49,916 bases of DNA from a virus. Made by a program: the position numbers and the translations under genes. The stretch spans positions 1-49,916 of the IMG/VR virus record IMGVR_UViG_3300042198_000175. One strand, written 5' to 3'. Below the pieces are notes generated by a model. It had not been told where the DNA came from, did no database searches, and worked only from the letters and a program-made list of their open reading frames with translations. Shown here piece by piece: positions 16,867-44,139 of the stretch; positions within the stretch are counted from its first letter, which is position 1; the number at the start of each line of letters is the position of its first letter.

Positions 16867-19800
16867 CTATACTCCTGTTTGTAAAGTTAAGGTTTCAGTT
16901 AAATCCACTACAGTGTCCACAAGGATTTTATCTGCAGGGAAAGTTGGAGTGAAGATTATTTGAACATTTAATCGTCCTTCCTGTTGGTCTCTAATGGAGT
17001 TGTTAGTGTCAGAGCAGATAGTAGATCCTATTCTTGTTAACCAACCGTCTCTGTATTTAGAGAAGAGGTAAGCATCACAACTAGCTGCTACTTCATCTCT
17101 TAAACCAGAGTCATTAGGTCTAGACCTAACCCACTGTAGATTTAGATAAAGGTCAGACTTAATTTGGTCTATTACTCGCATAATTGAGAAGTATCTTCTG
17201 TAGGTTCTAGACTTAGTAGTAGTTAAACCATGTAAGAATCTAAACCCATTCATGTTTTGGTCAAATAGCATAACCTCCACTCCAGCTATAGTCATACCAT
17301 TTAAGTAGCTTGGAGTTACTCTTGTATCTACAGAGCTAGCTCCTTGTACTAATCCACGACCAACAACTGCTGCAGGAGAGATGTGTGGTTCTCTTGCATA
17401 AACAAAGCCTGCATAACTACCACTTGAACCTACACCACTTGCAATAACACCATTGCCAGAAGTGAAAGTCTGGCGACCTGCCACTAGAACTACCCTCTCG
17501 TTGTTGAGTTCATCAGCTAGTAGTTGTGCTCTCTCTGGAGTTATCAGTGCAGGTAACTCGAAGATAGCTACTCTTAAACCACTTTCAACAGTTGCTCTAT
17601 TAACAGTCTCTATAGCAGTATCAAAGACTTTTTGATAAGTAGGGTCTCCGTAGTTAATTCCAGGTAAAGCAAGCGCAGCAATGTTAAAAGCTTCTAGTTC
17701 GTGAATAGCTTTTATTAAACCATTTACTAAACCAGCAGGCTGACTACTAGCTGTACCGTCAGTACCACCTTGCAGAGAGAATCTTTGCAGTACATTTAGG
17801 TTTGCAGCAGTGATAGCAGTTAAGCCCTTTTGAAATTCAGAACTTAAATTACCTAATGGAGGAGCTAATCTAGTAGGAGTAAACTTAAGAACTCTTTCAT
17901 TTAGAGTAAAGAACTTATTAGCCGCCGCCCCCCGCCTTGCAGGTTCAAAATATAGCTGTATATCAGAGGTAGAAGGAAAAGCTAAAGACCTTCCCGTACG
18001 AATATCTATGTTGTTTGACTCAACTATAATATTCCTAGACATAGAAGAGGTTAAACTACTTCTATTTGTATCAGTAATCTCCAGCAAGAATGAACTTGAG
18101 ACCTTGTTAATCTTCTGTCTACTAATACTACATAAAACTTGGTTTCCGTGAGAACCTGGAGATAGAGTCTCTAATGTCCATAGATGAGTACCGTCGTTAG
18201 AGTACAGATTGCGTCTAGCTGCTCTTGACCCGTTATAACCACCACTAAACTCAAGAGTTGAGACTTTTACCTTAGATGGGTCAGAGGAATAAGTAGTTAC
18301 TATCAGTAGTAGTCTGTTAGAGCTTTCACCACTGCTTGAGCACCTAAAACTAATACTAACTGTTGAGATTAAGTCTTTTACAACTATTTCATCTATCAGG
18401 TCACTAAAAGTAGAGTTGTTCTCAAAAGCTGTCTGAATATCTTGATAGATATCATAGTAGAGTTGACCCGCTTGGTAAGCGTCCTCAGAGTCAACTGTTT
18501 TACCACCAACTAACAAAGTTTCCTTTGCAAAAGGTACTACAAAGTAGCCCATCTTAGACAGAGGTAAAACTTTCTCACCTTGCTCACCCCACAACAAGTC
18601 TATACCAATCCAATTAGATGAAAGGATAATTGGACCTGCTTGTACTGCTGGTCTAGTGTAATAATGGAAAGGTCTAAAGTAACCACCGTCATCTTCTGTA
18701 AGTAAGAAGTAAGAGTCGATGACATACTCACCATAACCATCGCTGTATACTTCCTGCATAGAAAGGTAGTCATCTGCAAGACTTGCACCCACTAGATCAC
18801 TTGGAGTGTCAAAGGTATAACCTATGACGTACTGCGCTTTCTCTGGAAAAGCAATTCTCACTCCGTCAAACTGGTCTTCTTCTCTAAAAACTGTAACTAC
18901 AGAGTTTTGAGGTACATCGTTAAAATCAATAGATCCGTCTATCCTTACTAACCAAGTCCCAACTTGATCAGTATTATCATCTCCAACAGTAATAGATTCT
19001 ATACCATAAACTCTGTTGTTGATCAAAAGTTTATCTTCACCAGGAACTAAACCTTCCGAACCGCCGACACCAAAGTTTCCAGAAATAAGTATTTCATTAA
19101 TTGGCTCTTCATTATTACTACCCTCAATGGTATTAGTAGATACTAAGTAAGGTATTAGAGTTACTTCTGCATCCTTTGGTAAAGAATGTAGAATACCTGG
19201 CTTTTCTATTACAGTAGTCAGTAAACCATCATTAAAGGTTAGATCGTCGCCAGTTTGTTTATAAACAACTCCATTTATCAGTAAGTCATACTTTGCTAAT
19301 TTATTAGTAGTAGACCCTAACCAAGTAGAAATATCAGTTCTAATATCAACACTGATTAGTGTTTCACCCTCATTCACACTTTGATGTAACCGACCTGTAA
19401 CAGACATTGGGTGTAGAAGATTACACTTTACTAACACCCCATGATGTGTATTACTTAACTCAAAAGGCTTAGAAGCAATTAAAATGCTATCATTATCCTT
19501 CTTAAAAGCATAGCCGGGGGAAATTAAAGGAAGAAGTTTAGGCAAGTCTAGTTCAGATTTTGAGATAGTAGCAATCTGATAACCTGGTATATTAGACCTT
19601 AAGAAACGTAACTCTATACTTAGGTCTTCACCAACTGCCACACCATCAACTATGACGGGTACTTGACCTGGGATTAGCTGCCCCCCACCCTGCACAGCTT
19701 CAGTAATATGGTAGCTAAATCTACCAACACCTCTAAAAGTTGGGTGTAGAAGTCTAGATTTTCTACTTCTTACAGGGGAGTAAGTAGAGTTAAACTCAAT

Positions 19801-20205
19801 TACCTCCCCTAGGTAGTCAATCTCAAACTCATGCCCAATTGCTCTGTAGCTAGACGGTAGAAAGGAGTTACCTTCAACTCGGTAGCCTACAGTTGGTGCA
19901 AAGCTAGGATTTCCAGTAGAATCCTCAATCTTGGCGGTCGAGGCGTTAGCTGAGGCTGAAGCCCTTGCAATAGTAAAAGAAGACTGTCCATTTTGTACAG
20001 CTTGCTGAACAAATATAGACCCAGGAGAGTTATCTAATCCATACAAAGCGGAAAATTCTTGCATAGAGTCGATATTAGTAGGAAGCTCAGACCCCTTGCT
20101 AAAAGTAGAAGCAACCCCAATTCTATTTCTCCACCTTTGCTGTGGAGTTGGGGAAGACAAGACCCTTTCCGAAAAAACAATACTAGGGTATTTTAATTCA
20201 GACAT
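16867..20205 (-). CDS. Tail sheath protein (oversized)
   Basis: This forms the contractile outer cylinder of the tail. The N-terminal 90 residues follow the sheath pattern: YPSIVFSERVLSSPTPQQRW, then GVASTFSKGSELPTNIDSMQ with EFSALYGLDN, then FVQQAVQNGQSSFTIARA. The C-terminal quarter is also typical, with LNGMTIAGVEVMLF, RRYFSIMRVIDQIKSDL, a DEVAASCDAYLFSKYRDGWL region and the closing IIFTPTFPADKILVDTVVDL strands. At 1112 residues it is much longer than most sheaths. The extra length lies in the middle (about residues 150-700), which reads as several inserted beta-rich domains and would decorate the tail surface. A 160-base gap upstream separates it from the neck genes and probably contains its promoter. 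Confidence 0.85.
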   Translation of the reverse strand: MSELKYPSIVFSERVLSSPTPQQRWRNRIGVASTFSKGSELPTNIDSMQEFSALYGLDNSPGSIFVQQAVQNGQSSFTIARASASANASTAKIEDSTGNPSFAPTVGYRVEGNSFLPSSYRAIGHEFEIDYLGEVIEFNSTYSPVRSRKSRLLHPTFRGVGRFSYHITEAVQGGGQLIPGQVPVIVDGVAVGEDLSIELRFLRSNIPGYQIATISKSELDLPKLLPLISPGYAFKKDNDSILIASKPFELSNTHHGVLVKCNLLHPMSVTGRLHQSVNEGETLISVDIRTDISTWLGSTTNKLAKYDLLINGVVYKQTGDDLTFNDGLLTTVIEKPGILHSLPKDAEVTLIPYLVSTNTIEGSNNEEPINEILISGNFGVGGSEGLVPGEDKLLINNRVYGIESITVGDDNTDQVGTWLVRIDGSIDFNDVPQNSVVTVFREEDQFDGVRIAFPEKAQYVIGYTFDTPSDLVGASLADDYLSMQEVYSDGYGEYVIDSYFLLTEDDGGYFRPFHYYTRPAVQAGPIILSSNWIGIDLLWGEQGEKVLPLSKMGYFVVPFAKETLLVGGKTVDSEDAYQAGQLYYDIYQDIQTAFENNSTFSDLIDEIVVKDLISTVSISFRCSSSGESSNRLLLIVTTYSSDPSKVKVSTLEFSGGYNGSRAARRNLYSNDGTHLWTLETLSPGSHGNQVLCSISRQKINKVSSSFLLEITDTNRSSLTSSMSRNIIVESNNIDIRTGRSLAFPSTSDIQLYFEPARRGAAANKFFTLNERVLKFTPTRLAPPLGNLSSEFQKGLTAITAANLNVLQRFSLQGGTDGTASSQPAGLVNGLIKAIHELEAFNIAALALPGINYGDPTYQKVFDTAIETVNRATVESGLRVAIFELPALITPERAQLLADELNNERVVLVAGRQTFTSGNGVIASGVGSSGSYAGFVYAREPHISPAAVVGRGLVQGASSVDTRVTPSYLNGMTIAGVEVMLFDQNMNGFRFLHGLTTTKSRTYRRYFSIMRVIDQIKSDLYLNLQWVRSRPNDSGLRDEVAASCDAYLFSKYRDGWLTRIGSTICSDTNNSIRDQQEGRLNVQIIFTPTFPADKILVDTVVDLTETLTLQTGV

Positions 20206-24470: not shown

Positions 24471-25805
24471 CTAGAATGTACCGTAATTGAGGTTAGCCTG
24501 CAGGATAAACTTAGTCTTCAGCTCATCTGGTTCACATACATCGAGAAGAGAAATCCAGTGGGGATAGATAACTACCGGCAGGAAAGCGTCGCCTAACTGC
24601 ATTGTTCTTCCTGCTGGAGCGGGGGGCTCAGACATACCAGAAACTCTCATGAACATACCAGGAGATCCATCCGGCGCTTCACCACTACAGTGATAAGTAA
24701 ACCCAAGTCTTGCAGATGGGTCACTAGCAGAACCAGATGCAACCAGCGCTACTTTGTTAGCAGGCCAGAAGGTTTGAATCTCACCAGTTACTGGGTCTCT
24801 ATACAAACCATCCATTAGTTTAATGTTCAAGCCAGCTATTGAGGTAATGTCCCCACCAGCACCAAAGGTGATGAAAGAAGCAGGAGCAGTACCATTAGTA
24901 GCTAATGCATTACCACTTACTGTTTGTGTATCTCCACCTGTTCCACTAATTCTCTGATGGTTGTTAATTACAATTCCAGGAACGTTCATCAAAGACTTGA
25001 TGTACTCATTCTCCATGATCACAGTCATGAGGTCAGAGGACATTACAATAGTGTTGAATCTGTTCTTGTTGGTCTTGTACAAATACTGTTTTAGCAGTCT
25101 TAAGCAACCTATCAAGTCAGCTCTGGGGTCAGTCCAACTTACACCAGCACGACCGTCAGTAGACCTAAACATCAATGCTTCTGGACGACCCTTATCATTT
25201 GTCAAAGCTTTTGCTGCTTTGTAAGGAGTACCAGCAATGTCTGCTGCAGCTTCTACTGTGGAGTTAAAGCCATCATAGCTAAAGTAGTTATGTGCAGGAA
25301 TGTTAGTAGAAACATCAATTGCTACACCAGAGCGTGGGTCTGTGTACTTTATACCACCTAGAAGGGTTTTTGCTCTGAATAGGTCTTTAGTTCTAGCATG
25401 GCGGTTTACAAGCTGCTGAACTCTTCTTTGTACTAGCTCTTCAGGACCCCAAGCCTGGTTCATAGTTCCTGGCTTTCTGAGCTGGTTAATCAAATGCTGC
25501 TCAATAAAGTCGTCTTCTCTGACTACTGCAGGGATAGCAGTCATCGATCTAATACGGTTTGGCTCTAAGAACCCACCATTCGGTACAGCAAACCGAACGA
25601 TTGGCATAATGCCCAACCCTTCAATGATTTGCTCAACTACTATAATCCGCTCTTGGATGTTAATATCTGGAAATAGGTCTGTTAGAGGTGTAATCTCTAG
25701 CTGCTCAAAAGAGCGAGCCAACATTGTTAGCTGTAAGGAACCAAGAGCAGGAATGTCACCAATATAACCCCACTCCGTCACCTTAGCTTCAAATTCATTA
25801 GCCAT
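24471..25805 (-). CDS. Major capsid protein (lambda gpE-like HK97-fold family)
   Basis: This is the main shell protein of the head. The 444-residue sequence has family-E features: an N-terminal LTMLARSFEQLEITPLTDLF segment, the RIIVVEQIIEGLGIMPIVRF strand-helix, a VREDDFIEQHLINQLRKPGT region, and the conserved RAKTLLGGIKYTDPRSGVAI block (residues about 142-161), which resembles the family element ending in a G-x-I/V strand. The C-terminus has the expected strand-rich pattern (VSGMSEPPAPAGRTMQLGDA). It lies directly after the protease/scaffold gene, as in lambda and Mu. AAGGA lies upstream of the ATG, and a TATATAAAG-like sequence further upstream may belong to its own promoter. Confidence 0.85.
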   Translation of the reverse strand: MANEFEAKVTEWGYIGDIPALGSLQLTMLARSFEQLEITPLTDLFPDINIQERIIVVEQIIEGLGIMPIVRFAVPNGGFLEPNRIRSMTAIPAVVREDDFIEQHLINQLRKPGTMNQAWGPEELVQRRVQQLVNRHARTKDLFRAKTLLGGIKYTDPRSGVAIDVSTNIPAHNYFSYDGFNSTVEAAADIAGTPYKAAKALTNDKGRPEALMFRSTDGRAGVSWTDPRADLIGCLRLLKQYLYKTNKNRFNTIVMSSDLMTVIMENEYIKSLMNVPGIVINNHQRISGTGGDTQTVSGNALATNGTAPASFITFGAGGDITSIAGLNIKLMDGLYRDPVTGEIQTFWPANKVALVASGSASDPSARLGFTYHCSGEAPDGSPGMFMRVSGMSEPPAPAGRTMQLGDAFLPVVIYPHWISLLDVCEPDELKTKFILQANLNYGTF

Positions 25806-28561: not shown

Positions 28562-30019
28562 TCAAACATCAGTTGACACATTCTTAGGCACACTAACTCT
28601 ACTATTAATATGCTTAGTAGTAGATCCAGTCTGTCTACCAGGTTTACCAGCACCATTTGCACCAGCCTTAGTATCAGGCGACCCCCCTTTCTGTCTAGGA
28701 TTTATAACTATCTCCTCTATCCACTCTTGGTCTTCTTTAGTCATCATCCGGTCAGATAGCCTTAACATCTGCCTGACCATTCTCCAATCTACAGAGTTAG
28801 TTGGGTTTAAATATCCATTCTCTGTTAAGCCCTTTACTGTCTGCATAGAGGCTACCCTGTCCTCAGACCTGTCACTGTGTATCCTTGCAAAGCTAGGAGC
28901 AATCCTAGCTGACTCTCTGTTAAAGTTCCACTTGACTAAAGGCTGTAAAACCTGCTTAACAGCTTCTGTTGCTAAAGAGTTAAAAGCCTGTTCTTTGTTT
29001 GTGTAAAAAACTTCCATTCTTCTTTCAATAGAGGAAGCGTTTAAACTTCCCACACTATCCGAAATTAAAAAGTAAGGAATAATATGCTTCACACTCTCTT
29101 GGTCAGCATAAGCAATCGCATCTAAAAACATATTCCCTACTAAGTCACTTAAGGGAACTGACCCTATCTCTGGACTCGACCCTTCAACGTTATAAGGTAA
29201 AAGTAAAGTCTGTTTGAGATCATCATCCTTCTCAATCTGTTCTCTTAGTAGGTCTAAAGTAGTAACAGTTCTTTCATCACCTGTGCTAGGATCTATCCTT
29301 GACTGGTCAGTGGGGTGTGCTATTGAAGAAATCCAAGTCATCCTATGACCAGCTCTCTCTAGGTAAATAAGCATCAAGTCTATTAAAGCTTCCTTTAACC
29401 TCTGCCATTTATAGCATGGCGCAACTAAAGACTGACCGTAGTAATTTCCATACTCAGTATCAGCACCTAAATATAGAACCTTCCATAGGTCTAGCTTTTT
29501 TAAGCTAGTGGTAGAGTCAAGAGAAACTTGGTAGATACCAGACTTATGATATCCATCTAGTGTTTCTCCTCCTTCCACTAATCTTCCTTTTTTATCTGTG
29601 TAGATAGTTAAGGTTGAGGGGTGGTAGGTTATTAGATCCTCAAGAGTCAGAGAACCAAATTCTAGTTTAAAAATTATCTCAGAGACAGAATATCCAGCCC
29701 AGTCTTTTGTGAACAGAGAAGTTTTAATAGCACTTTTCCAGCTTACTCCTAGAGTATCCTCCATAGTTTTTAAGTTATAGTTTAAAAAAGTTGCTATCTC
29801 TTCATCTGGGTGTGTCACCTCACCAATAGTAGAAATTATATAATTTTCAAAAGTATTCAAAGCCGAGCGGATAGTTAAGTCCTGCCTCGCAAGCTTTTCG
29901 TATAATCTAAGATTAACATTTTGTATTCTACGAACAGAATGGAAAAGTGAGTGACCACCTTTTTGTACAAACTTTCCTTTAGCAGAACGCTTATCTTGGT
30001 AAAGAATATCTACTGACAC
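28562..30019 (-). CDS. Portal protein (Mu gp29/DUF935-like)
   Basis: This is the dodecameric ring through which DNA enters and leaves the head. The 485-residue length fits the family. Typical elements include an N-terminal helix-strand (YEKLARQDLTIRSALNTFEN), FTKDWAGYSVSEIIFKLEFG, LITYHPSTLTIYTDKKGRLV, LDLWKVLYLGADTEYGNYYG, and the stem-like segment with LVAPCYKWQRLKEALIDLML that follows. The C-terminal tail (from about 445) is Gly/Ala/Lys-rich and low in structure. The start is a GTG with GAGG-type Shine-Dalgarno sequence upstream. It lies upstream of the protease and capsid genes as usual, but the large terminase is about 25 kb away. Transcription probably starts between the upstream terminator and this gene. 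Confidence 0.83.
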   Translation of the reverse strand: MSVDILYQDKRSAKGKFVQKGGHSLFHSVRRIQNVNLRLYEKLARQDLTIRSALNTFENYIISTIGEVTHPDEEIATFLNYNLKTMEDTLGVSWKSAIKTSLFTKDWAGYSVSEIIFKLEFGSLTLEDLITYHPSTLTIYTDKKGRLVEGGETLDGYHKSGIYQVSLDSTTSLKKLDLWKVLYLGADTEYGNYYGQSLVAPCYKWQRLKEALIDLMLIYLERAGHRMTWISSIAHPTDQSRIDPSTGDERTVTTLDLLREQIEKDDDLKQTLLLPYNVEGSSPEIGSVPLSDLVGNMFLDAIAYADQESVKHIIPYFLISDSVGSLNASSIERRMEVFYTNKEQAFNSLATEAVKQVLQPLVKWNFNRESARIAPSFARIHSDRSEDRVASMQTVKGLTENGYLNPTNSVDWRMVRQMLRLSDRMMTKEDQEWIEEIVINPRQKGGSPDTKAGANGAGKPGRQTGSTTKHINSRVSVPKNVSTDV

Positions 30020-31458: not shown

Positions 31459-34400
31459 ATGTCTGACCCTACCACTGGCTCTACTCCTGACTCTACTTCA
31501 GAACCAACTACCTCTGTTTTTGAAAGTTTAGTAGAATATCAAATGGGCGCAGGAAGCCCAGTCTCTCAGTTTTTCGCAAGCGTAGCTGAAAACTCTAGAG
31601 ACCCCTTTCGCGCTGCTGCGGATATATCAATTAGATTTACTGAACGATTTGTAACTCAAGAACTAGAGAGAAGTGCCGCAATTATTAATGAAGGTGGGAT
31701 TAATCGTTTAACAGACCCAGTTAGAGCAGACTTTTTGCTAAGGATGCACAATGAGCATCTACAGTATACAATTCAAAGCGAAAGCGCTAAGATAAGCTCG
31801 TCCCTGGGTCACTACAATCAGGAGATGCAAAGAGTAACAGGTATAACTTATGAAAGTTACACAGGTAGTGGTAGTGGTAGAGAAAGTAAAAGAATAGATA
31901 CTTACTCAGCACCTAGCGGCTTTATAGCAAGACCTCTGCATTATGATACCTACAGTCTCTTTGCTAGTGAAGAGTCAAAGCAACTTAATTTAAGAATGAG
32001 TATCTACCAGCTACAGGAAATTAATACTGTAGCTGGTATAGCTCAAAGAGAAAAAGACCGAACTGAAATTATTACTCAGGGATATAGTACTGATCGCAGA
32101 GGTCAAACAGAAAACTTTTTTGGCGAAGTAACAAGCCAAGCTGATGAAAAGCAACAAAGTCTCCGTGTAAAGTCAGCAGGAAATACAGTAGGAAAGAGAA
32201 TTAACTTACCAAGTGTTTTTGCAGCAAATGTTTTAAATGAAGCACTTAATGTAGAGAAGACAGACGACAGTATGAAGGGAGTGACTACTGTTGCAATGGT
32301 TGACGGGTCTCTACACCCGAAAGTCGGTTACCTTTCAGACCCTAAGACTGGTAATGTAAAAATAGCATTCATTAGTACTCAAAACATTACTTCTGCTCTC
32401 TCTAGAGGTGATACTACAGAAGAAATGCTAGTCCTTAGAAGTGATGTAACTTTTACTGACCCTAAAAGAACTGACAAAAGAAGTGAATTAATGAGTCAGT
32501 TAGTAGACTTAACAGAAAGCATTTTTGAAGCAACTCGAGATAAATATAACGATAATACTAAAGAATTACAATCTAAGTTTGATATTACTTATAGGAAAGA
32601 TATTAGAGCGAAGCTTAATAAAAGACTTTCAGCTAGACAAGTAGCAGGTGTAAAACGGAGTGTATATGTAAATCAAGATATACACAACCAGATAGCTAAT
32701 TTACTTCATTCTACATACTCAGCAGGAGATGCTACAACAGGTGACAAGGTAGTTATCTCCCTTCAGTACATAGAAAAGCTGTTTGAAACTACTCAAAGGG
32801 AAAAAGATTTTGAACTCACTGGAGAAGGTTTAGATAAACAAAGTAAAAAATTTAAAGACTTTAAGACTAAGGCACTAAACGCAATTCTAAGTTTAGCAGA
32901 TCAAGGTAGAGTAAGTATTGCCATCTCAGGCGATAGCTTTGGTGAAGGGCAAGGTTTATTTAAGCTTCTAGATGAATATCACAGTGGTAACATAACTGGT
33001 GACAAAAGAACAGCCCTTGAAACTTTACTCAACCGCAATGTTTTCTCTGTCCTACCAAGTGCTTATGCCCATAGTAAAACCCTAGCTATTTTAGATGACA
33101 CAACTAAGCCAGGAGATGTAAAGTTAAAAGGTTTCGTAATAGGTTCTGCTAACATTAGTAACTACGCTTACAGAACTAACGTAGAATCTTCCCTTTTTAT
33201 TACTGATGAGCAGGTAGAAGCTCTAACTGATAGTGAACAGAGAGACATTGCAAACTACTACTACCACGGCGTTAGTAACTTTAATAGGCAGAATACTCAA
33301 GGCTCAAGGTTAAACCAAAGAGGTAGTGCAAAGCAGACACAGAGATTAATTCAGTTATTAGATGACCAAGGAGCAGTTGACCAAAGGTCTAAACAAAGCG
33401 GTAAGTCGGCAGCGCCTTTTACCTACGCTAGGATCTATGACCCTAACCGCGCAGGAGAGTTGATAGGCTTAAGTTTAAAGATACAGACAGGGAGTAACTC
33501 TAACTATAGCTTCTCAGTTACAGTAGGTGAGCAAGTAGGACAACAGGGTGCAGTACCTATAGTCTACTTGTCGAAGAACAATAGAGTTATAAATGGAATG
33601 ATCTTTAAAAACGACTCTCGCGAGGTTCTAGAGCTGCCCTCCAGAAGAGATGAAAGTGGAGCAGTAGTTGCTAGACAGCTAGAGCCAGGTCAAACACAGT
33701 CCTTTGATGCGTTTGACACCCTTTTTGGTATGATGAATACCATGCGACACGCTATGATCTTTGAAACACAAAGAGGCTCTGTTCAAAAAGGTATAAGTGT
33801 CCTGACTGACTCAACTAGACAGCAATCTCTTCAAAGAACATTATCTAGTATTCTTTACACTGAAGCTAATGCCCAAGGACTACTTAATTTAACAGACAGT
33901 AGTAATCTAACCTTTGGCTCCATGTTAAGTAAATTTAGCCAAAAAGGACAACTTGAGACAGTACTAAACATCCTTGAGCAAAAGTTAAGTAGTGAGATGC
34001 CTACTGTTGATCAAACAGGAGAACCTGTACCTCGTAACTATAACACCGATTTAAATGTTATACAGAGACAGGAAGAGATAAAAAGTCTTTTCACAGAAAT
34101 TCGCTCTGGGATTACTGATTTCGACAAACCTTTAGGGCTAGGTGCTCAAGGGTTAGCAAATAACATAGTACTGAGGTTAGATAAGCTTTTACAATTATCT
34201 ATTGACAATGAGAAGCAGGCAACTATCTACACTGATATCTTAATGTTAATGATTGGTCAAGATGAAGTAGCCAAGAAACAATTTGAATCAGCTCAACAAA
34301 AAGCAAAGAGAGATGTATTTAGTCAGATAACAAGTGTCTTCTTTCAGCCTCACGAATTAAGTTACTCATTTGGGCAAGCTCTCTATAAAAAACCTGTATT

Positions 34401-37400
34401 TGGTTTAAACCAACAAATTTATAACCTGGCAGAACAGCAGGGAACTCTAGGATTTATACTTAACCCCCATCGACTAAGGCACGGTGAAGACTTAGGTGGT
34501 TTGTATTTTAGAGCGGTAGCTGATACTGTTAGATACGAAGAAAATGACCTATACCAAAACCTAGGTGGTATCTATAAAGCAGTTGGGGGGCCAGCAACGA
34601 TTAGAGAGGGTCTCCCTACATTTAATAGCATGAGACAGATAGCTATCATTGACCGCGACTCAATGCATAAGAGGGCTAAAGAATCATTTATACAGGCTGG
34701 TCTATCAGAAGAACAAGCAGAACAAAGAGCAACACAACAGGTAAATAAAGTATTTGCTATAAGTAAGTTCAAAGGAGAAGGAAAAGGAGAAGACCAAAAG
34801 CAGATGTTCTTTTATCCTTTTAGGGTAACTGAACAAGTAGTTGGTCGTATGAGAAACTTACAGAGCGGTAGACCGGTTGAGTCCTCATCCCCTGAGTTTA
34901 ATAACTACGCTAGAAGCTTAGGTGTTGTAGGAGGAGACGACGAAATTTCACTAGATTCAATAATCGGCGGTAGTATTCTCACCTCCTTACCTCCACACCA
35001 GTTTAACTACCTACAGACTTTATATAATGACCAGCTAGAAAAAGATAGAGACCCGGCAGGAGCAGTACCAGCTAGCTTGTCTGATGATGGGGGACAGATT
35101 GTTAAGTTCTTAAAAGAAAACTTCCATGGCAATGCTACTTCCCTTGTTCGTGGTTTCCTGGGAGGAGCAACACCTAAAAGAGTAGCACAGAGTTTTGGTA
35201 TTAGCACTATGAGTGACTTTGCTTATATCAATTCTGACTATGAATACAATCTAGATGAGCATAGTAAGGGTACTAAAGCTACTTATAGCTATTTACATAG
35301 CATAACAATGACTTTTGACACCCGCCAACTAGCACAGAATACATCTTTTGCTGGAAGGGTAACTCAAACTTTAAAAAAAGGAACTACATTCTTAGGTAGA
35401 GAGACCCTAATTACTCAGACTGATGTTTATCAACATCTAACTGACGAACTAACTGAACAAGTAAGACAACACAGTGACGGAAAAGCTAGAGAGTTTACAG
35501 ATTTAGACGCTAGACAGAAAAAAAAGGTTCAGACTTATTTTCACAATAAATATCAAGTAATACTATTTAAAGATGGAGAATTTTTCTTTAGACCAGGTGT
35601 GCACTCCCCAGCTACTGGAGCAGATATAGACGAAAGGCTACGAAGTAAAAAAATAATAGGAAGGCTAAACCAATCAGAAGGGTTCTTTACTATTGATGGT
35701 TTACTTAATGAGAGTGGTGGGCTTCTACAGTACCCTAGTTCAATAGGGCAAGAAAAGTCAACAGAACTTATACACTTTAAAATACCAGCTTTCAGCCAAA
35801 GAGAGTACGGCGGTGAAACTGTTCTTTACAATGACGCTAGAGTTTTCTTAACAAACTCAAATACTACAGTATTAGAGCTAGACGTTGCTACCAGTAGAGA
35901 TATGATGAGTGGACAGAGACCTGGTAGTGACACAGCTAAAGGTCCTGGGGTAATGGTTGATGGTGAACTCTTTCGGGTCATAGAGCAAACAAGTGGTTTT
36001 GCGACTGGAGACGAAACTTTACTATCTAATAGGCTTGCTAACCAAAACCTTTACGCAGTTCTAGCCCCCAGCCAAGTAAAGGGGTTTAACTTTGAGTCAG
36101 GCTTCTCTCTCATCGAAGATGAGGACAGCCGACTAATGAATCTAGTAGCAACTGGAAATAGGAAAGTAGGAACCCCAGTAGAAAGGCAAAAAGGGGGAGA
36201 AGTAGTAGCACAAGCCTTAGCATTTTTAATGTTAGGAAGTGAAGTAGAAGGTAAAAGAATATCTACCTCTCTAGGTGAGAATTTAGTAACACACGATGAC
36301 AAGAAACAGTTTGGTAAAGTACTAACTAAAGCTGATGGGTCTGGTAAACCAAGTAAGTTTGGTAAACCACTAGGACAAAAGGAGGGGAAAATTGAATCTT
36401 ACATAAGTATCTCTCAAGCTATGCAGCCTACAGCTTTAGTTTACTCAGAGCTAGGGTCTTTAGCTTTACCAGAATACTTAAGGAATACAAGTATTTCCAT
36501 CGAAGAAGCTTTGATAAAAACTGTAAAAGAAGCATTAGAAGGAAATATTGAAGCTCGTGAGCACTTAAGTAAGCAAGCTTCAGCAATCTTTGAAGGAGCG
36601 AGGAAGAGTGCCAACGCCCTAAAATTTGGTGATAGGTACGTCTTCTCTGAAGTGATGGAGAACCGCACAGCCTCTTTCCTAGCATACTTTATAAAAATAA
36701 CCCAAGACCTCTTTACAGATATAAAAGATAAAGATAGGTTACAGGGTCCCTCAATCAGCGAATTAAATCCAGCCTACTTCTTTGAGGATGTTAACAATAG
36801 AAAAGTAGGAAATGAACAGTTACAAAAGTATACTGGCGTTTATGAAGAGTCATCTACTGTTACTACTGATGAAAAACAACTAAACCAAGTCCTAACAAAA
36901 AGTACCCAAAGAATAGCCTCAGCCTTCAATATCAAACTTCCTACTCCAAAGGACTTTAAAGATGCTAAGGATGATTCAGCAAGAACAGAGGAGTTGAAAG
37001 AGCAGTTAGGTATAGGTCTAGACCTTTTAGACAGACTACTAAGGTTTAACCGCTTTGTAGAGTTTGGCATAGAGCATATACCAAGCAAAATAGCAGTAGC
37101 TGTAGGTATGGCAAATATGACTAAGTTAGAGGGTCAGTATGTACACGAACTAACTAAAAATCAACTAAGTCTTTATACCTACACAGAAAAAGAAGAAGAA
37201 GATGTTTACACTATCCAACAGGCTGTCATTCTCCTTGGCAGCTTAATGGAAGGTAGTATCCCTGATCCTATTAGAGCTAGGTCTAACCTCTACACATTTA
37301 AAACTACTAACTTAGCTATCCACTCAAAGAACTATGAAAGATCAAGTCCAACTCCAACCATAAGTGGAGAGGAAGCAGAACGAATAGGATTGACAAGATG

Positions 37401-40400
37401 GCAAGCTTCGCGAATAGGTGTTAGTAGTGCTTTTAACTTTGTAAACGAGTTTTTATCTTCCTTTAGTAGAATAGCTTCTAACGCATTACCTAACGTTATA
37501 ACAGAGAAGGGTGATGTTATCTACTCTACTCCTTTAGCAGAAGACGCAATCAAATTATTTTTATTAGGTGAGGACGAAGCTAGTAACGAAGTCCTAGCAA
37601 CTATGCACGGTGTGAGAACTATTACTAACTCTCTGTCTACCACACCAAGCAAGGATAGCATAGACAACAGAAGAAAAGCCTTAGAGACAAAAATACTCAC
37701 AGACCTAAAAGCTAGTGAAACAAAGTTAAATAGTGTACAAACTGAACTAAAGAATATACTAGATAGTTACACAGCAGCTAGAGCTACAAATGAAAATCTA
37801 GACTTTCAAGAACACGTTGAAGTTTACAAACAAAGTCAGATTACAGCAGGTAAAACTTTAATTACCCCTGTTGGTTATTACACCAGTCTATTTACAGAAC
37901 TGGGTAGAGCTTTTAATTTGAGCACAGATGTAACTATAGAAAAAATCCAAGAAAATTTGACTTATGAAACTTTAAGTAAAGCAGGCGTTTACGACCATTA
38001 CCAAGCTGAGTTAAATCAAAGAATATCTGCCTCCCAGGGTACAGAATTAGGTACAGAGTATCTTAAGCACGGATTAACTACACTTTATGACCTAGCAACT
38101 GCATTTAAAGGTGCACCTACTGATAAACTTCCGTTAATAGCTAAAGATAAAGAACGTATACAAAAAAGAGCACAGCACGTCTATGATCAGATAACGCAGA
38201 CACAAAGGCTAGTTCTACCAAGAATCTACATACATAGTAGGCAGGAAGGTAAATACCAAGTTTCCTTCGCTCCCACAGACCAAGTTGCCCCTTCTCAAGG
38301 TTTATTACTAGGTTTAGATTTACTACAAAAACTCTCTCTAGTCTTCCAGGGTACATCCCATGCAGCCCTCCGTACACAAGAAAGACTACGACAACGACTC
38401 CAATCTACCATACCTATTTTTGAAGAGATATCTAAAAATATAGAAGATTCAGCTGAAAACAGGATCTCAACTGGGATAACTAGTATCTCAGAGTACCAGT
38501 ATAGGCAAATACTAGATCTAGAGTCAACCATGAAAGAGTCTATAGATAATACTCTCATGCTTCTTGATAGCCAAGAAACTATTAGACAAGCTTCAGTTGA
38601 TAGGTTAAAACTAAGAGGTATCAGTGCTATCGCCATGTCCAGTTTACTTGTTGGAGAGCGTGAACTCTACCAGGGCGGGAGGCTTTACGACCTAGATGCT
38701 TATGGAAAACAAAGTAAAACAACAGGACTTACCACCCACCTCCTATTTATCCATCATACTTTCTTAGAGTTAGATAAATTAACTAAAGATATCTCAGAAA
38801 AGCAGAAACAGATTAATAAAGATGGTACTACTCCTGAAAGGGGAGAGGAAATCAACAAATTACAGGCAGAAAGAGAGGCTAAGTTTGAAAAACTAGCTGA
38901 TGGTCTTCAAGTCTACCGTACAGTTAATGATGTAATGAATAATGTACCTAGTGATAAGAGAAACCTAATCACTGCTGACCATCTGAAGAGAGCTTTCTAC
39001 GAACAAGACAACATCAGCATTCTTAGACCAGACCTTACTACCTTTACTAACTTTGCTACTAATTTAATAATGGCTGCTGATGTCAACTCAGTAACTAACA
39101 ACGTAGAGGACTACTTACAGGCTAAGGCAGCTATCGCACCTAAAAGACAACAACTAGCAGCAGTCATAAAAGGTCAGATTATCACTACTGAAGAAAGTAT
39201 AGCAGAAATAAAAAGTCAGATAGACGTAATTAATAAAAAGCCTAAGTTAGGTATAACGAGTGACGTAGATAATATTTGGAGAAGAAGTGAGATAAAAGAA
39301 TTAAACTCACAGTTAAATGAAAAAACAGCAGAATTAAGAGGTCTTCAAAGAGACCTAAATTTTGTAGAAAAATATACAGCCCACCCTAATTTAGTAATTA
39401 ACCTGTTTAGGAAACATGGTGTTTCACTAGGTGATATTAGTAAAGAATCTGCCTATAAAGCAGCAGCAGACAGCAACCTTTTTATAACTAGAGCAGAACT
39501 AGCGAGAGTACAAACTACCCAACTTCATCAACCTAAATATAAAGAACTAAAAAAAAGAGAGAAAACTGTCGTAGACCTAGTAATTAAACAAAAAACACTT
39601 AGTAGCTCTTTTAGAGAAAAGAAACGAGAGCAAAGAAAAGAAACTGATATAGCTAAAAAAACTTCTTTAAATAATGACATTAATAACTTAAAAAAACAGA
39701 TTAGTACTACAAGAACCAAAATAAACCTTGGTAGGAAACAAATATCAAAGTTAAAGGAACAGGTAAAGGGTATTTATACACCTGATAGTTTAGATATACA
39801 GGAGTTTATTTTAGAAGTAGTAGAAGGTACTCCTTATGGTTACAATTATAAATACTTAAAACTAATAACTGATATTGAGAGAGCAAGCCTTAAAAGCGGT
39901 ACAGAAAATATAAGAGGGTACTTAGAGGTAGCACAAGAACAGTATAAGCAGTTAAGGATAGATAGAGGTAGAAATCTTGGTAGCGAAGAACTTCTTTACA
40001 GTGTATATAAACTATCCACAGAAGGTTTTTCTGAGGAAGAAAGGCAAAAAGCCTTTGAAACACTCTTAGATGAAAGGGCTTCTATTTTAAGAGATAGACA
40101 GAGTACTCAGTTGGCAGTCTTAAGGGAGCAGACAATAAAAAACTCAAAAGAGCTGGGTAAGTACCTTTACCATGTAATAGCAGTTAGACAGGGTGCACCT
40201 CATGGTTCCAGTCTAGAATCTGAGTCTGGTACTTTCCCTCTAGTAGGTTTAACTTATGAAGACCTTCGGGAAAGAACTCAAAAGTCTGGTACTTTAGTAA
40301 ACCCAGCTAAAAAAGAAGCAAGGACTCTAATGCTTCTGTCTGCTCTGGGTGTACACTATACACAACTTGGAGACTATGATGGTGACAGCTTTCAAGCGGC

Positions 40401-43400
40401 AGTTAGCCAAATAGGTCGCCTAGACTCCTCAATCCTAGACTTGGATAATCAACTTCGGAGCCTCGAAAAAGGAAAAACAGAACGTAAGCAAAGTAATGTA
40501 GAGCCTAGTAAGCAAAAGTACTTTGACGAACTAGCAATAACAAGCCTAAATGAGAAAAGAGCAACCTTAATTGCTCAAAGAGAGAAGCTACTACAGGAAC
40601 AAGTTAAACTTAGAGAAGCAGCACTAGAGAGATCAGAAAAAGCTGTCAGAGAGTTTACTAAGATGTATACAGGTTTGCCCTCCGAGTTGGTAGAAGGGGG
40701 AGAAGATGCAGTTCTAAAGGTAGACCAACTTCAAGAGTTTACTAAACAGTATAGGGATACTTTAGCTAACATCTACGATAACATTGACCACGTAATGATT
40801 TCTGAAGGTTCCTATAGTACTGAAAATCTGCAAAAACTAAAGTTTACTTATGATGGCACTAAATATAATGTTAGCGATAGAGATACCCTTTCTGCTGAGT
40901 TACTAAGACAAGTAGATGCAGACTTAGTAGAGATCAATAATAACTTAAGTAATAATCCTCCTAAAAGTGGTCAGACAGCTAATGATTATGTCAAAGGAAT
41001 GATTATAAACAGAATGGCAATGGAAGCAAACGTAAGGACTCCTGTATCAATTAGTCAGAAAATTCAGGCAGCCGCGTTTGGCTCTTTGTTAGAAGAGGAA
41101 TCACTCTTTAACCTCCAAGCTATTGCTGGCGCGGGAGGTACAGGATTATTAGGCTCAACTTATAACACTATCGTACCCTTAGTAGCACTCAGAATGACTG
41201 AGATAGCATCCTCTAAGGTATTCAACTCAGAAGCAGCCTCTACCTATCGCATGGCTCTAGCCTTAGGACTCAATAGACAGATTAACCAAATAAATGCAAA
41301 ACTAAACCCAGACCGATCGTCTTCTTTAGGGACTATTAGTAACGAGGAAAAAACAAGGTTAGCAAAAGAAAAAGCAGGTCTATTGGCAAAAAGACATCAA
41401 CTCCTAAAAAACGAAGAGACTATAGCCGACAGACTTAAGCTTGAGGAGATGGATAGGATAACACAGGTGGCACTTCGTTTCACATCCACAGTTCAGCAGT
41501 TCCTAAGAGATGCAACTATTAAACCAAAAGAAGATAAAGCCGCCGCTAAAAAAGGTCAACCTCCTATTACTTTATTAGAGGTAGCAGCAGAATACACTTT
41601 ATCTAAAGAACAGCTTGAAAATTATGGTATTGTAGCTGTGGACGGAGTGGATGGTACTAGGTCTCCAAGAGGTTTATCCAACTTGCTAAGTCGTGTCACA
41701 GGTAGCTCTGATTCAGAAATAGCTAATAGAAGGGAAAACCTACTTACTACATTTTTAGGAGAAAAGCTGGGGGCTGCTCTATTAACAGGCACTGGTCTTA
41801 AGGGTACAGCTTCTGCTGAAGTGAATATGCCTGATGCTAGAGCTTTTGCAGCTCTTAAACTTATAACTGAATACTCACAATTTGACACTGCTACAGAAAT
41901 GATTCAAAAGAGTGTCTTTTCTAGTCAGTTAGATGCGGCACGACAGAAAGATCGCTACAAAGACATGGCTAATGATCAAGAGTTTTTGTCACACTTTATA
42001 GCTGACTTAGTAACTGCTTTTGAAAGTGACTTTATACTTGGAAATGTAATAGAAATAGATAACAGAAATAACTTTGGTGACTCTTACCAAAGAATTATGG
42101 ATCAGTACGGCTTAATAGCAGGTAAGAAAGAAGTAACAGAAGATGGTAAGACAAAAACTCTTATAAGTATAACTTACGATGATTCACAAATTGGAAAACT
42201 AAGAGAGCAAGAAAAGAATAGATTACTGTTACTAGCAAAAAGAGATGCAGCTTCTATAAGCTATGATAGTGAAGATAGTGAAGGTAAGCAACTTGACAAG
42301 TACTTAGATAAATATGAGCAGGAATTAATACAAAGAAGGAAGGCTATAAAAACTAGTCTCGAAGCCTTAGAAGCTTCCTCCACAGACTCTGATAGGTTTA
42401 AAGCTGCTATCAAAGCAGTTCAAGTTATAAGTGTACAGCAAGATACTGAGTACTTAGCCCAAAACTTACAAGACTTAAAACAATTTCAAAAGGTTGTCAA
42501 GTCTATCAGAGGAGCAGATGGTACACCCTCCGACTTAGAAGATAACCTTAACTTATATCAACAGGCATTTGTACAGCAACTTGCAGCTGGTAAGATAGAC
42601 AGCCAGATATGGACAGGATTCTTTGCCCTCGCCCTACCGCAGATTAATGAGATAATAACTAAGGATGCTAGTGAAACCCGCGCAAGGGAGGGTGAGGTAG
42701 GAAAAGAAATCGAGTCAGAATCTATAACCAGTCAAGCAGGCATTAGGTTGATGACTGGTGTGCTACCTCCTTCAGTTCAACCTACAAACTACCACGAGCG
42801 TATGGCAAGCGTTTTTGTTACTACTGCCGAGGGGGTAGAAAACCAAAAACTTAGTTTAGCTAAAGTACTTCTACAAACTATATTTGAAGATGCTGGGGTA
42901 GTACTAAATAAAGAAGAAACAGAAGCAGTATTTAATCCTATTACTATTTCCTCCGATGAAAAAATGGCTTCTACTAGACAAAAGTTTATGGAGGTCATTG
43001 AAGAATCAAGTTTAAGTGAAGAACAAAAAATAAAAACACAAGAAACATTTGGAAAAGGTTTTGATGCAATCTCTCGAATTGAGGCAGGTACAAGCCCAGT
43101 AGAATTGTTAAGAAATGCCAGTGCTTACCTCTACAACACCTCTTTTATCACAGAACAGATGGTAAGCCTAAGCGCACAGCAGCGACAAAATATGGCAAAC
43201 ACAGACCAGTCAGAAGAAGAAAGAAATAGACTTGACCGAGAATACCAAAGAGTTATTCAACATTTAGAGGAAAGTAGAAGTAATCTTAAAGCAGAAAGCT
43301 CAGAGGGGGTAGAAGCTATACCTAGCAGTAATGCTCAGTTAGATTTACAAAGGGAATTACAGACACAGTTTAATGAGCAAATTAACAGAGTAAACCAGGT

Positions 43401-44139
43401 ACAGCATGATATAGCTGTTAGGAAAGCAAGTAGGGTTGGTAGAAGGATAAATACTACCTCAGAATTAATGAGTATTGTAGCTGTTCCTCTACTCTTTGCA
43501 GCTTTAGGAGATACAAGAGACCCTGATAAACTAGGACAAGCTGTTATATTAGCAACAGATGCCTTTCAAGAGTTATCGTACTCACACTTTGTAACTGATG
43601 GTGTAAAGCAACCTGACTTTGGTGGTTGGAGAGGTGCAAGAGTTAGACATAGACTTAATACTACTCAGAATACTTTGGAAGCTATGAGTACAGCTTTGGT
43701 CTTTGAAGGGATGTACAGAGGTACACAAGAGATTACTAAAGCAACAGTTAGTACCTTAGCTAAAGGGTCGAGAGCCTTCTTTGCTTCAGCCGGCGGTAGA
43801 TTTTTTGCTGAGTCTTTTGGGAATATTACAGGTATGTTACTAGCAGGTGCTGTCACCGGCAGAAGTAGAAGTATCCCAGGTGAGTCTTTCACTGACACTG
43901 ATGTTGCTAACTCAATTATAAAAACAATAGTTGAATCAACTAGACTCGCTCTGTCCCAAATGGCAGAAGAAGTAACAGAACAACTGATGTCAGCACAGCT
44001 AGAAGAGGCAGAAGGTACATTCGTTGAAATGGTTGCAAGGCTCTCCGACTTTAATCCAAATGAGCGTTTTCAAGATACAGCGGAGGCTACAATTTACGAT
44101 AACCAACCAATCTCAGTGCTAGTCGTTTCAGAAGCTTAA
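31459..44139 (+). CDS. Giant virion-type protein with PLD nuclease and DxDGD polymerase-like motif
   Basis: This 4226-residue protein is the largest gene in the window. Near the N-terminus it carries a phospholipase-D-superfamily pair of HKD motifs. The first is divergent: H286-x-K288 with D294, then STQN. The second is clear: H538-x-K540 with D546, then GSAN at 562-565 and NVE shortly after. The family includes nucleases of the Nuc/BfiI type. At 2972-2976 lies D-Y-D-G-D in the context TQLGDYDGDSFQAAV, matching the metal-binding DbDGD motif of two-barrel RNA polymerases (YonO, QDE-1, crAss-like virion polymerases). A GTGLLGSTYNT segment about 255 residues later is where such enzymes have conserved downstream elements, but this is weak. 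Residues about 2580-2775 are coiled-coil-like. The last 220 residues contain apolar stretches. I see no secretion signal. It may be injected with DNA and may also serve as tape measure. Confidence 0.6.
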   Translation: MSDPTTGSTPDSTSEPTTSVFESLVEYQMGAGSPVSQFFASVAENSRDPFRAAADISIRFTERFVTQELERSAAIINEGGINRLTDPVRADFLLRMHNEHLQYTIQSESAKISSSLGHYNQEMQRVTGITYESYTGSGSGRESKRIDTYSAPSGFIARPLHYDTYSLFASEESKQLNLRMSIYQLQEINTVAGIAQREKDRTEIITQGYSTDRRGQTENFFGEVTSQADEKQQSLRVKSAGNTVGKRINLPSVFAANVLNEALNVEKTDDSMKGVTTVAMVDGSLHPKVGYLSDPKTGNVKIAFISTQNITSALSRGDTTEEMLVLRSDVTFTDPKRTDKRSELMSQLVDLTESIFEATRDKYNDNTKELQSKFDITYRKDIRAKLNKRLSARQVAGVKRSVYVNQDIHNQIANLLHSTYSAGDATTGDKVVISLQYIEKLFETTQREKDFELTGEGLDKQSKKFKDFKTKALNAILSLADQGRVSIAISGDSFGEGQGLFKLLDEYHSGNITGDKRTALETLLNRNVFSVLPSAYAHSKTLAILDDTTKPGDVKLKGFVIGSANISNYAYRTNVESSLFITDEQVEALTDSEQRDIANYYYHGVSNFNRQNTQGSRLNQRGSAKQTQRLIQLLDDQGAVDQRSKQSGKSAAPFTYARIYDPNRAGELIGLSLKIQTGSNSNYSFSVTVGEQVGQQGAVPIVYLSKNNRVINGMIFKNDSREVLELPSRRDESGAVVARQLEPGQTQSFDAFDTLFGMMNTMRHAMIFETQRGSVQKGISVLTDSTRQQSLQRTLSSILYTEANAQGLLNLTDSSNLTFGSMLSKFSQKGQLETVLNILEQKLSSEMPTVDQTGEPVPRNYNTDLNVIQRQEEIKSLFTEIRSGITDFDKPLGLGAQGLANNIVLRLDKLLQLSIDNEKQATIYTDILMLMIGQDEVAKKQFESAQQKAKRDVFSQITSVFFQPHELSYSFGQALYKKPVFGLNQQIYNLAEQQGTLGFILNPHRLRHGEDLGGLYFRAVADTVRYEENDLYQNLGGIYKAVGGPATIREGLPTFNSMRQIAIIDRDSMHKRAKESFIQAGLSEEQAEQRATQQVNKVFAISKFKGEGKGEDQKQMFFYPFRVTEQVVGRMRNLQSGRPVESSSPEFNNYARSLGVVGGDDEISLDSIIGGSILTSLPPHQFNYLQTLYNDQLEKDRDPAGAVPASLSDDGGQIVKFLKENFHGNATSLVRGFLGGATPKRVAQSFGISTMSDFAYINSDYEYNLDEHSKGTKATYSYLHSITMTFDTRQLAQNTSFAGRVTQTLKKGTTFLGRETLITQTDVYQHLTDELTEQVRQHSDGKAREFTDLDARQKKKVQTYFHNKYQVILFKDGEFFFRPGVHSPATGADIDERLRSKKIIGRLNQSEGFFTIDGLLNESGGLLQYPSSIGQEKSTELIHFKIPAFSQREYGGETVLYNDARVFLTNSNTTVLELDVATSRDMMSGQRPGSDTAKGPGVMVDGELFRVIEQTSGFATGDETLLSNRLANQNLYAVLAPSQVKGFNFESGFSLIEDEDSRLMNLVATGNRKVGTPVERQKGGEVVAQALAFLMLGSEVEGKRISTSLGENLVTHDDKKQFGKVLTKADGSGKPSKFGKPLGQKEGKIESYISISQAMQPTALVYSELGSLALPEYLRNTSISIEEALIKTVKEALEGNIEAREHLSKQASAIFEGARKSANALKFGDRYVFSEVMENRTASFLAYFIKITQDLFTDIKDKDRLQGPSISELNPAYFFEDVNNRKVGNEQLQKYTGVYEESSTVTTDEKQLNQVLTKSTQRIASAFNIKLPTPKDFKDAKDDSARTEELKEQLGIGLDLLDRLLRFNRFVEFGIEHIPSKIAVAVGMANMTKLEGQYVHELTKNQLSLYTYTEKEEEDVYTIQQAVILLGSLMEGSIPDPIRARSNLYTFKTTNLAIHSKNYERSSPTPTISGEEAERIGLTRWQASRIGVSSAFNFVNEFLSSFSRIASNALPNVITEKGDVIYSTPLAEDAIKLFLLGEDEASNEVLATMHGVRTITNSLSTTPSKDSIDNRRKALETKILTDLKASETKLNSVQTELKNILDSYTAARATNENLDFQEHVEVYKQSQITAGKTLITPVGYYTSLFTELGRAFNLSTDVTIEKIQENLTYETLSKAGVYDHYQAELNQRISASQGTELGTEYLKHGLTTLYDLATAFKGAPTDKLPLIAKDKERIQKRAQHVYDQITQTQRLVLPRIYIHSRQEGKYQVSFAPTDQVAPSQGLLLGLDLLQKLSLVFQGTSHAALRTQERLRQRLQSTIPIFEEISKNIEDSAENRISTGITSISEYQYRQILDLESTMKESIDNTLMLLDSQETIRQASVDRLKLRGISAIAMSSLLVGERELYQGGRLYDLDAYGKQSKTTGLTTHLLFIHHTFLELDKLTKDISEKQKQINKDGTTPERGEEINKLQAEREAKFEKLADGLQVYRTVNDVMNNVPSDKRNLITADHLKRAFYEQDNISILRPDLTTFTNFATNLIMAADVNSVTNNVEDYLQAKAAIAPKRQQLAAVIKGQIITTEESIAEIKSQIDVINKKPKLGITSDVDNIWRRSEIKELNSQLNEKTAELRGLQRDLNFVEKYTAHPNLVINLFRKHGVSLGDISKESAYKAAADSNLFITRAELARVQTTQLHQPKYKELKKREKTVVDLVIKQKTLSSSFREKKREQRKETDIAKKTSLNNDINNLKKQISTTRTKINLGRKQISKLKEQVKGIYTPDSLDIQEFILEVVEGTPYGYNYKYLKLITDIERASLKSGTENIRGYLEVAQEQYKQLRIDRGRNLGSEELLYSVYKLSTEGFSEEERQKAFETLLDERASILRDRQSTQLAVLREQTIKNSKELGKYLYHVIAVRQGAPHGSSLESESGTFPLVGLTYEDLRERTQKSGTLVNPAKKEARTLMLLSALGVHYTQLGDYDGDSFQAAVSQIGRLDSSILDLDNQLRSLEKGKTERKQSNVEPSKQKYFDELAITSLNEKRATLIAQREKLLQEQVKLREAALERSEKAVREFTKMYTGLPSELVEGGEDAVLKVDQLQEFTKQYRDTLANIYDNIDHVMISEGSYSTENLQKLKFTYDGTKYNVSDRDTLSAELLRQVDADLVEINNNLSNNPPKSGQTANDYVKGMIINRMAMEANVRTPVSISQKIQAAAFGSLLEEESLFNLQAIAGAGGTGLLGSTYNTIVPLVALRMTEIASSKVFNSEAASTYRMALALGLNRQINQINAKLNPDRSSSLGTISNEEKTRLAKEKAGLLAKRHQLLKNEETIADRLKLEEMDRITQVALRFTSTVQQFLRDATIKPKEDKAAAKKGQPPITLLEVAAEYTLSKEQLENYGIVAVDGVDGTRSPRGLSNLLSRVTGSSDSEIANRRENLLTTFLGEKLGAALLTGTGLKGTASAEVNMPDARAFAALKLITEYSQFDTATEMIQKSVFSSQLDAARQKDRYKDMANDQEFLSHFIADLVTAFESDFILGNVIEIDNRNNFGDSYQRIMDQYGLIAGKKEVTEDGKTKTLISITYDDSQIGKLREQEKNRLLLLAKRDAASISYDSEDSEGKQLDKYLDKYEQELIQRRKAIKTSLEALEASSTDSDRFKAAIKAVQVISVQQDTEYLAQNLQDLKQFQKVVKSIRGADGTPSDLEDNLNLYQQAFVQQLAAGKIDSQIWTGFFALALPQINEIITKDASETRAREGEVGKEIESESITSQAGIRLMTGVLPPSVQPTNYHERMASVFVTTAEGVENQKLSLAKVLLQTIFEDAGVVLNKEETEAVFNPITISSDEKMASTRQKFMEVIEESSLSEEQKIKTQETFGKGFDAISRIEAGTSPVELLRNASAYLYNTSFITEQMVSLSAQQRQNMANTDQSEEERNRLDREYQRVIQHLEESRSNLKAESSEGVEAIPSSNAQLDLQRELQTQFNEQINRVNQVQHDIAVRKASRVGRRINTTSELMSIVAVPLLFAALGDTRDPDKLGQAVILATDAFQELSYSHFVTDGVKQPDFGGWRGARVRHRLNTTQNTLEAMSTALVFEGMYRGTQEITKATVSTLAKGSRAFFASAGGRFFAESFGNITGMLLAGAVTGRSRSIPGESFTDTDVANSIIKTIVESTRLALSQMAEEVTEQLMSAQLEEAEGTFVEMVARLSDFNPNERFQDTAEATIYDNQPISVLVVSEA

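Follow-up and report, generated by a model that had tools for sequence, protein, structure and literature searches.

The window analysed here, a 49,916-bp virus record taken in full, holds the virion genes of a phage with a contractile tail and, adjoining them, a giant gene. The product of this gene is probably a two-barrel RNA polymerase (RNAP) of a new and very divergent family, packaged in the virion, ejected and fused to a PLD-like domain. In the proposed mechanism, the protein would be packaged in the virion and ejected with the phage DNA into the cyanobacterial cell. Its C-terminal half would be a very divergent single-chain two-barrel RNAP, in which the catalytic Mg2+ would be bound by D2972, D2974 and D2976 of one barrel, and K1541 or a neighbouring lysine would sit in the other. 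LGSTYN would form the bridge helix and QQFLRDATIKPK the trigger loop, with helical insertions of variable length between the barrel, bridge and trigger parts. The polymerase would transcribe the first phage genes upon entry, and cleavage or processing of nucleic acid is a possible task of the PLD-like domain at the N-terminus. The sequence and its conservation, the neighbouring genes, the lack of cysteine and the HKD half-sites are observed; we infer the fold, the packaging, the ejection and the polymerase activity. Since a conserved polymerase-type metal site is combined with a nuclease-like domain, Ma-LMM01-type viruses may inject an RNAP. We lean towards a separate lineage of ejected single-chain two-barrel RNAPs that belong to contractile-tailed cyanophages and carry a nuclease-like domain of PLD type. 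These enzymes would start transcription before the host RNAP acts and perhaps aid DNA entry.

The giant gene is an open reading frame without internal stops. The D2972-Y-D-G-D2976 motif is coded by GACTATGATGGTGAC and stands in the protein context TQLGDYDGDSFQAAV. No other DxDGD is encoded in any of the six frames of the window, and the number expected by composition alone in a protein of 4226 aa is 0.045. The original prediction had placed DYDGD at these same residues and had put the odds of an accidental DxDGD at a few percent; the translation agrees with it exactly and the composition model gives a value of that order. A hydrophobic segment lies close to the C-terminus, and such segments are also found near the C-terminus of relatives where the threshold is passed. 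The positions of all features are given in Table 1.

Table 1. Features of the virion module and of the giant gene in the window, with the basis of each assignment
Feature	Position	Strand	Basis
Contractile tail sheath	16867..20205	-	phrog_30392 E=2e-31
Major capsid protein, Ma-LMM01 capsid relative	24471..25805	-	phrog_30785 E=3e-48; tblastn
Portal protein	28562..30019	-	phrog_113 E=2e-17
Giant gene, 4226 aa, 0 Cys	31459..44139	+	ORF without internal stops
First PLD/HKD half-site, residues 286-309 (HPKVGYLSD...FISTQN)	32314..32385	+	motif in most relatives
Second PLD/HKD half-site, residues 538-565 (HSKTLAILDD...GSAN)	33070..33153	+	H538, K540, S563, N565 unchanged throughout an alignment of nine members
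P-x-Q-[VI]-K-x-F block, residues 1537-1548	36067..36102	+	K1541 invariant; candidate second-barrel lysine (inferred)
DRLxxxGxSxIAxxSxLV block, residues 2381-2409	38599..38685	+	conserved in family
R-Q-G-A-P-H-G block, residues 2910-2916	40186..40206	+	comparable to R-x-P ahead of the catalytic loop in known two-barrel RNAPs
DYDGD, residues 2972-2976	40372..40386	+	D-[YF]-D-G-D in 12/12 members; one copy per related record
LGSTYN, residues 3231-3236	41149..41166	+	L, G, Y, N invariant; bridge-helix-like (inferred)
QQFLRDATIKPK, residues 3346-3357	41494..41529	+	QQ..RD..K.K invariant; trigger-loop-like (inferred)
Hydrophobic segment close to C-terminus, residues 3997-4017	43447..43509	+	sequence

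The minus strand of the window carries a virion module composed of large terminase, baseplate wedge, tail sheath, capsid protein, head protease and portal genes. Neighbouring virion genes and a contractile-tailed phage had been proposed before, and the PHROG matches of portal, capsid and tail sheath support both; in divergent relatives, too, the giant gene adjoins this module. The tail sheath is unusually long (1112 aa), known sheaths matching its C-terminal half only, and the large terminase (646-3663) is long as well, with 1005 aa. Two adjacent genes at 44716-45621 and 45710-46522 each give a weak match to phrog_37225 (unknown function), in one and the same part of its profile, and look like tandem paralogues.

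The capsid protein of the window matched ten phage records in tblastn at ~30% identity. As all of them belong to Microcystis/Microcoleus Ma-LMM01-type cyanophages, the window is judged to be a fragment of a distant, contractile-tailed Ma-LMM01 relative. With the C-terminal part of the giant protein, tblastn gave a single weak match (E=0.2), which spans the motif and lies in the Microcoleus phage My-WqHQDG, where the giant gene is situated upstream of the structural genes. Ma-LMM01 gp080 (3562 aa) is encoded on the strand opposite to the head and tail genes that it adjoins. The giant gene lies next to head and tail genes in Ma-LMM01, the Microcoleus phage and the window alike. Both cyanophage giants are homologous to the window protein, with the same motifs, and both are annotated 'hypothetical protein'; they share ~18% overall identity with it and possess DFDGD, in the form LGDFDGD, in place of DYDGD. 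A scan with the whole window protein by itself returned nothing and one scan of genome contigs gave no relatives; these needed alignment queries, and alignment-based scans yielded more giants of about 3050-4700 aa. When one member of the family (L022) was searched back against 50,697 phage records, Ma-LMM01-type giants accounted for 10 of the 11 matches, all 'hypothetical protein'.

Invariant columns in the family alignment are few and clustered. All 12 members compared, although divergent (mostly 16-30% identical), keep the three aspartates and the glycine, and position b of the D-b-D-G-D motif is always Y or F, while the flanks vary around it (LGDYDGDSF, LNDFDGDSF, LLDYDGDNF, LGDFDGDSY). In seven related records read in six frames, D[YF]DGD occurs once per record and always in the giant gene. 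The original prediction was to fall if the aspartates were not conserved in homologues, and they are kept throughout. A functionless chance pentamer would be in keeping with the small but real expectation from composition and with the presence of the same string in unrelated proteins. Since members as divergent as these conserve the motif and each related record has it only once, chance is excluded on the alignment, which points to strong selection; this explanation is already refuted and keeps a negligible probability.

The string GDYDGD[ST]F was also found in eight IMG/VR contigs outside the giant family. Two of them (L044 and L048, IMG/VR 3300031417_000046 and 3300049793_000200) carry it in a phage RNAP subunit, matching phrog_2986 with E=3e-111 in the case of L044, so GDYDGDTF is the catalytic loop in a recognised phage RNAP subunit. 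These subunit genes end in the GGDYDGDTFRLIGLF catalytic loop, near-identical to the motif of the giant. Two other contigs (L049 and L052, IMG/VR 3300030099_004235 and 3300030110_002144) encode a crAss-RNAP-like protein with GYRSP upstream. It appears to be a fragment of a crAss-like two-barrel RNAP (L049 1-2580), with GYRSP...GDYDGDSF and AAVDNPK, had no match among the 50,697 phage records, and possibly represents another unannotated virion RNAP family. In two further contigs the string is located in the linker of a T7-type primase-helicase, and in the remaining two in a 118-aa protein that is no RNAP. Because such non-polymerases carry the same string, it is by itself suggestive and not diagnostic.

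Apart from the motif, conserved blocks occur along the C-terminal half of the protein. R-x-x-x-P-x-G (R2910 to G2916) precedes the motif; on the Ma-LMM01 side of the family it takes the form R-S-P or R-A-G-P, and in one member (L066) leucine replaces the proline. R-N-P or R-S-P before the motif is also present in P23-45 gp96 and YonO. Downstream of the motif, a G..G...LG..YN cluster at residues 3224-3236, with the family form LGxTYN, compares with GIYAN/GIFAN/GITAN of crAss-like virion RNAPs, and the QQFLRDATIKPK block compares with crAss FLAASVDNVKDP. The order of blocks in the giant family is thus R-x-x-P-x-G, DbDGD, LGxTYN (bridge-helix-like) and QQFLRDAALKPK (trigger-loop-like). In crAss-like virion RNAPs, as read from their own records, it runs R-x-P, GSDFD[IV]D, IG.[YF]AN or GITAN and VD..KDP, which is the same order with similar spacing. 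Position-specific matrices built from known RNAP sites, with the register set by eye, were applied to nine members. The bridge block ranked 1-13 of ~580 positions, and the trigger block, a weak match, ranked 7-136 of ~580. LGSTYN and QQFLRDATIKPK are named here as candidate bridge helix and trigger loop. The DRLxxxGxSxIAxxSxLV block may correspond to the beta-prime RVDYSGRSVIVV strand region, which it resembles by eye.

When whole profiles were compared, the likeness to known polymerases was limited to the motif. Profile searches of the PDB with the giant family found no RNAP, the giant protein matched no named RNAP among the PHROGs, and the cellular-type Rpb1 domain was absent from it in a search whose controls worked. 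A search for T7-type RNAP gave no match either, but as its control was silent too it is no evidence of absence. HHalign against the P23-45, crAss and YonO families gave at most 10% probability and aligned little beyond the motif, the genuine families reaching 7-35% with each other. A larger crAss profile scored 25.4 against at most 19.3 for 60 column-shuffled decoys, for a segment picked for its motif and with a motif-driven score. AlphaFold models of residues 1195-2394 and 1733-2396 of one relative (L004), built with ten sequences, were of low confidence (pLDDT 42 and 48, the catalytic segment mostly below 50) and helix-rich, without a barrel, and Foldseek with the second model found no polymerase match. 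Models of such low confidence neither support nor refute a double-psi-barrel fold. The original assignment to two-barrel RNAPs is partly supported, by the conserved aspartates and by collinear blocks that resemble those of known enzymes; profile likeness (HHalign, PDB, PHROGs) is confined to the motif. Other aspartate-rich motifs were also considered. An EF-hand, which requires a DxDxDG loop with a hydrophobic residue at position 8 and E at position 12, was rejected, position 6 being S/T/P/N, position 8 lacking a conserved aliphatic residue and E being missing at 12. HAD (DxDGT) and TOPRIM (DxDxDG) were rejected by motif grammar.

Near the N-terminus, the giant protein and most of its relatives possess two HxK...[ST]xN half-sites, the hallmark of the PLD (HKD) superfamily. 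Pfam PLDc_2 matched the window protein with E=1.1e-5 and 25.7 bits, just below the cut-off of 27, and relative L005 with 2e-7, above the cut-off. On these half-sites and matches, the nuclease domain proposed earlier was borne out as a PLD-like domain, nuclease-like in sequence.

The giant protein contains no cysteine, whereas ~29 would be expected from the rest of the window (probability ~1e-13 under a simple composition model), and nine family members together have 2 in 34,048 aa. Ejected or virion proteins are similarly poor in cysteine (N4 vRNAP 0/3500, P23-45 gp96 0/5002, T7 gp15 0/747, T7 gp16 0/1318, phi14:2 gp66 2/2180), unlike the non-virion YonO (14/839) and T7 RNAP (12/883). The lack of cysteine fits a protein passing through the tail and supports ejection; together with the place of the gene beside the virion module it speaks indirectly for presence in the virion. 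It lends no support to polymerase function, because the SPbeta tape measure YomI also has no cysteine (0/2285). In a comparison of a handful of cases, the large proteins with an ejection or tape-measure role, taken from unrelated phages (N4 gp50, T7 gp15/gp16, P23-45 gp96 and YomI), were cysteine-free and other large phage proteins were not, and absence of cysteine in giant proteins is a possible simple flag for ejected virion proteins.

The main rival to the polymerase reading, to which we give an appreciable but minor share of belief, is a virion protein of ejection or tape-measure-like type that also has a PLD-like domain and whose aspartate cluster would be a structural or other metal site and no polymerase centre. 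The absence of cysteine, common to non-polymerase proteins such as YomI and T7 gp15/gp16, agrees with it, as do the helix-rich predictions of the low-confidence models and the limitation of profile homology to the motif. Against it stand the strictly kept D-b-D-G-D pattern, in which b is aromatic, and further conserved blocks in RNAP order. A tape measure corresponds to ~0.15 nm of tail length per residue. At that rate the giants (3000-4700 aa) would be far longer than the ~260 nm tail reported for MaMV-DH01 (PMC9927357), though the tail of the window phage itself may differ, and on length a tape measure as sole role is unlikely.

If the protein is a polymerase, its product and its time of action may be read in other ways. 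A late-made, non-virion polymerase that is not ejected has a precedent in P23-45, which encodes both virion and non-virion RNAPs (PMC10770324), but the lack of cysteine, unlike the non-virion enzymes above, and the position of the gene beside the virion module make it improbable. A two-barrel enzyme acting as DNA polymerase or primase, with PolD-like chemistry, is conceivable since archaeal PolD is among the two-barrel enzymes (PMC10770324) and the product cannot be told from sequence alone; however, the phage two-barrel enzymes compared are all described as RNAPs and the bridge-helix-like and trigger-loop-like blocks favour RNAP, leaving it a very slim chance. Points against the preferred RNAP reading itself are the restriction of profile homology to the motif, the low-confidence models that show no barrel, the sigma-70-like promoters of Ma-LMM01, the weak trigger block and the occurrence of the string in non-polymerases.

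MaMV-DH01 has been described as a phage without RNA polymerase and reliant on its host (PMC9927357), and in Ma-LMM01 the promoters of every class resemble sigma-70 promoters (PMC5780444). Such promoters count mildly against a large role of a phage enzyme and are compatible with a brief role at entry. In the literature searched, with most subscription journals outside its scope, no paper describing a virion RNAP for phages of the Ma-LMM01 type was found, which is no proof of novelty. If the proposal is true, published statements of RNAP absence in these phages (PMC9927357; PMC5780444) would be overturned, and a further lineage of ejected polymerases would stand beside N4, crAss and P23-45, in contractile-tailed phages. 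The hosts of Ma-LMM01-type viruses are toxic bloom cyanobacteria. With a packaged polymerase, the start of infection would have to be seen differently, and such an enzyme could help to explain three expression classes from nearly uniform sigma-70-like promoters. As Ma-LMM01 and relatives are cultured, the polymerase claim is directly testable. In Ma-LMM01 (NC_008562.1), a 42-bp tandem repeat of 6.7 identical copies at 43271-43551 (L087:38271-38551) lies immediately upstream of gp063, with which the early block gp054-gp063 begins. It is a possible control region of early transcription.

Among known systems, the crAss-like virion RNAPs (phi14:2 gp66 and relatives) are single-chain virion two-barrel enzymes with few cysteines and the same order of R-x-P, DFDxD, G..AN and VD..KDP. 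They differ in having I/V in place of G in the motif, in their Bacteroidetes hosts and in that no PLD-like domain was seen in them, and their profile match to the giant is not significant. N4 gp50 is a T7-type single-subunit polymerase. It resembles the giant protein in being very large (3500 aa), cysteine-free, ejected and encoded beside virion genes (PMC12633501). Its catalytic motif is unrelated, and N4 is a short-tailed phage. SPbeta YonO (PMC5467207) shares the single-chain two-barrel type, with R-S-P followed by DNDGD, but it has only 839 aa with 14 cysteines and is no giant virion-type protein. The closest concept is P23-45 gp96 (PMC10770324), a virion protein of 5002 aa that lacks cysteine and has a single DFDGD with R-N-P upstream. 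A similar motif search led to its discovery, and its sequence bears almost no similarity to other RNAPs. Its RNAP part is N-terminal and fused to the tape measure of a very long tail, it belongs to a siphovirus-type phage of Thermus, and it carries a metallopeptidase domain where the giant has a PLD-like one. The giant family thus differs from it in domain order, PLD-like domain, tail type and host, and activity and structure are proven for gp96, while the giant is known from its sequence.
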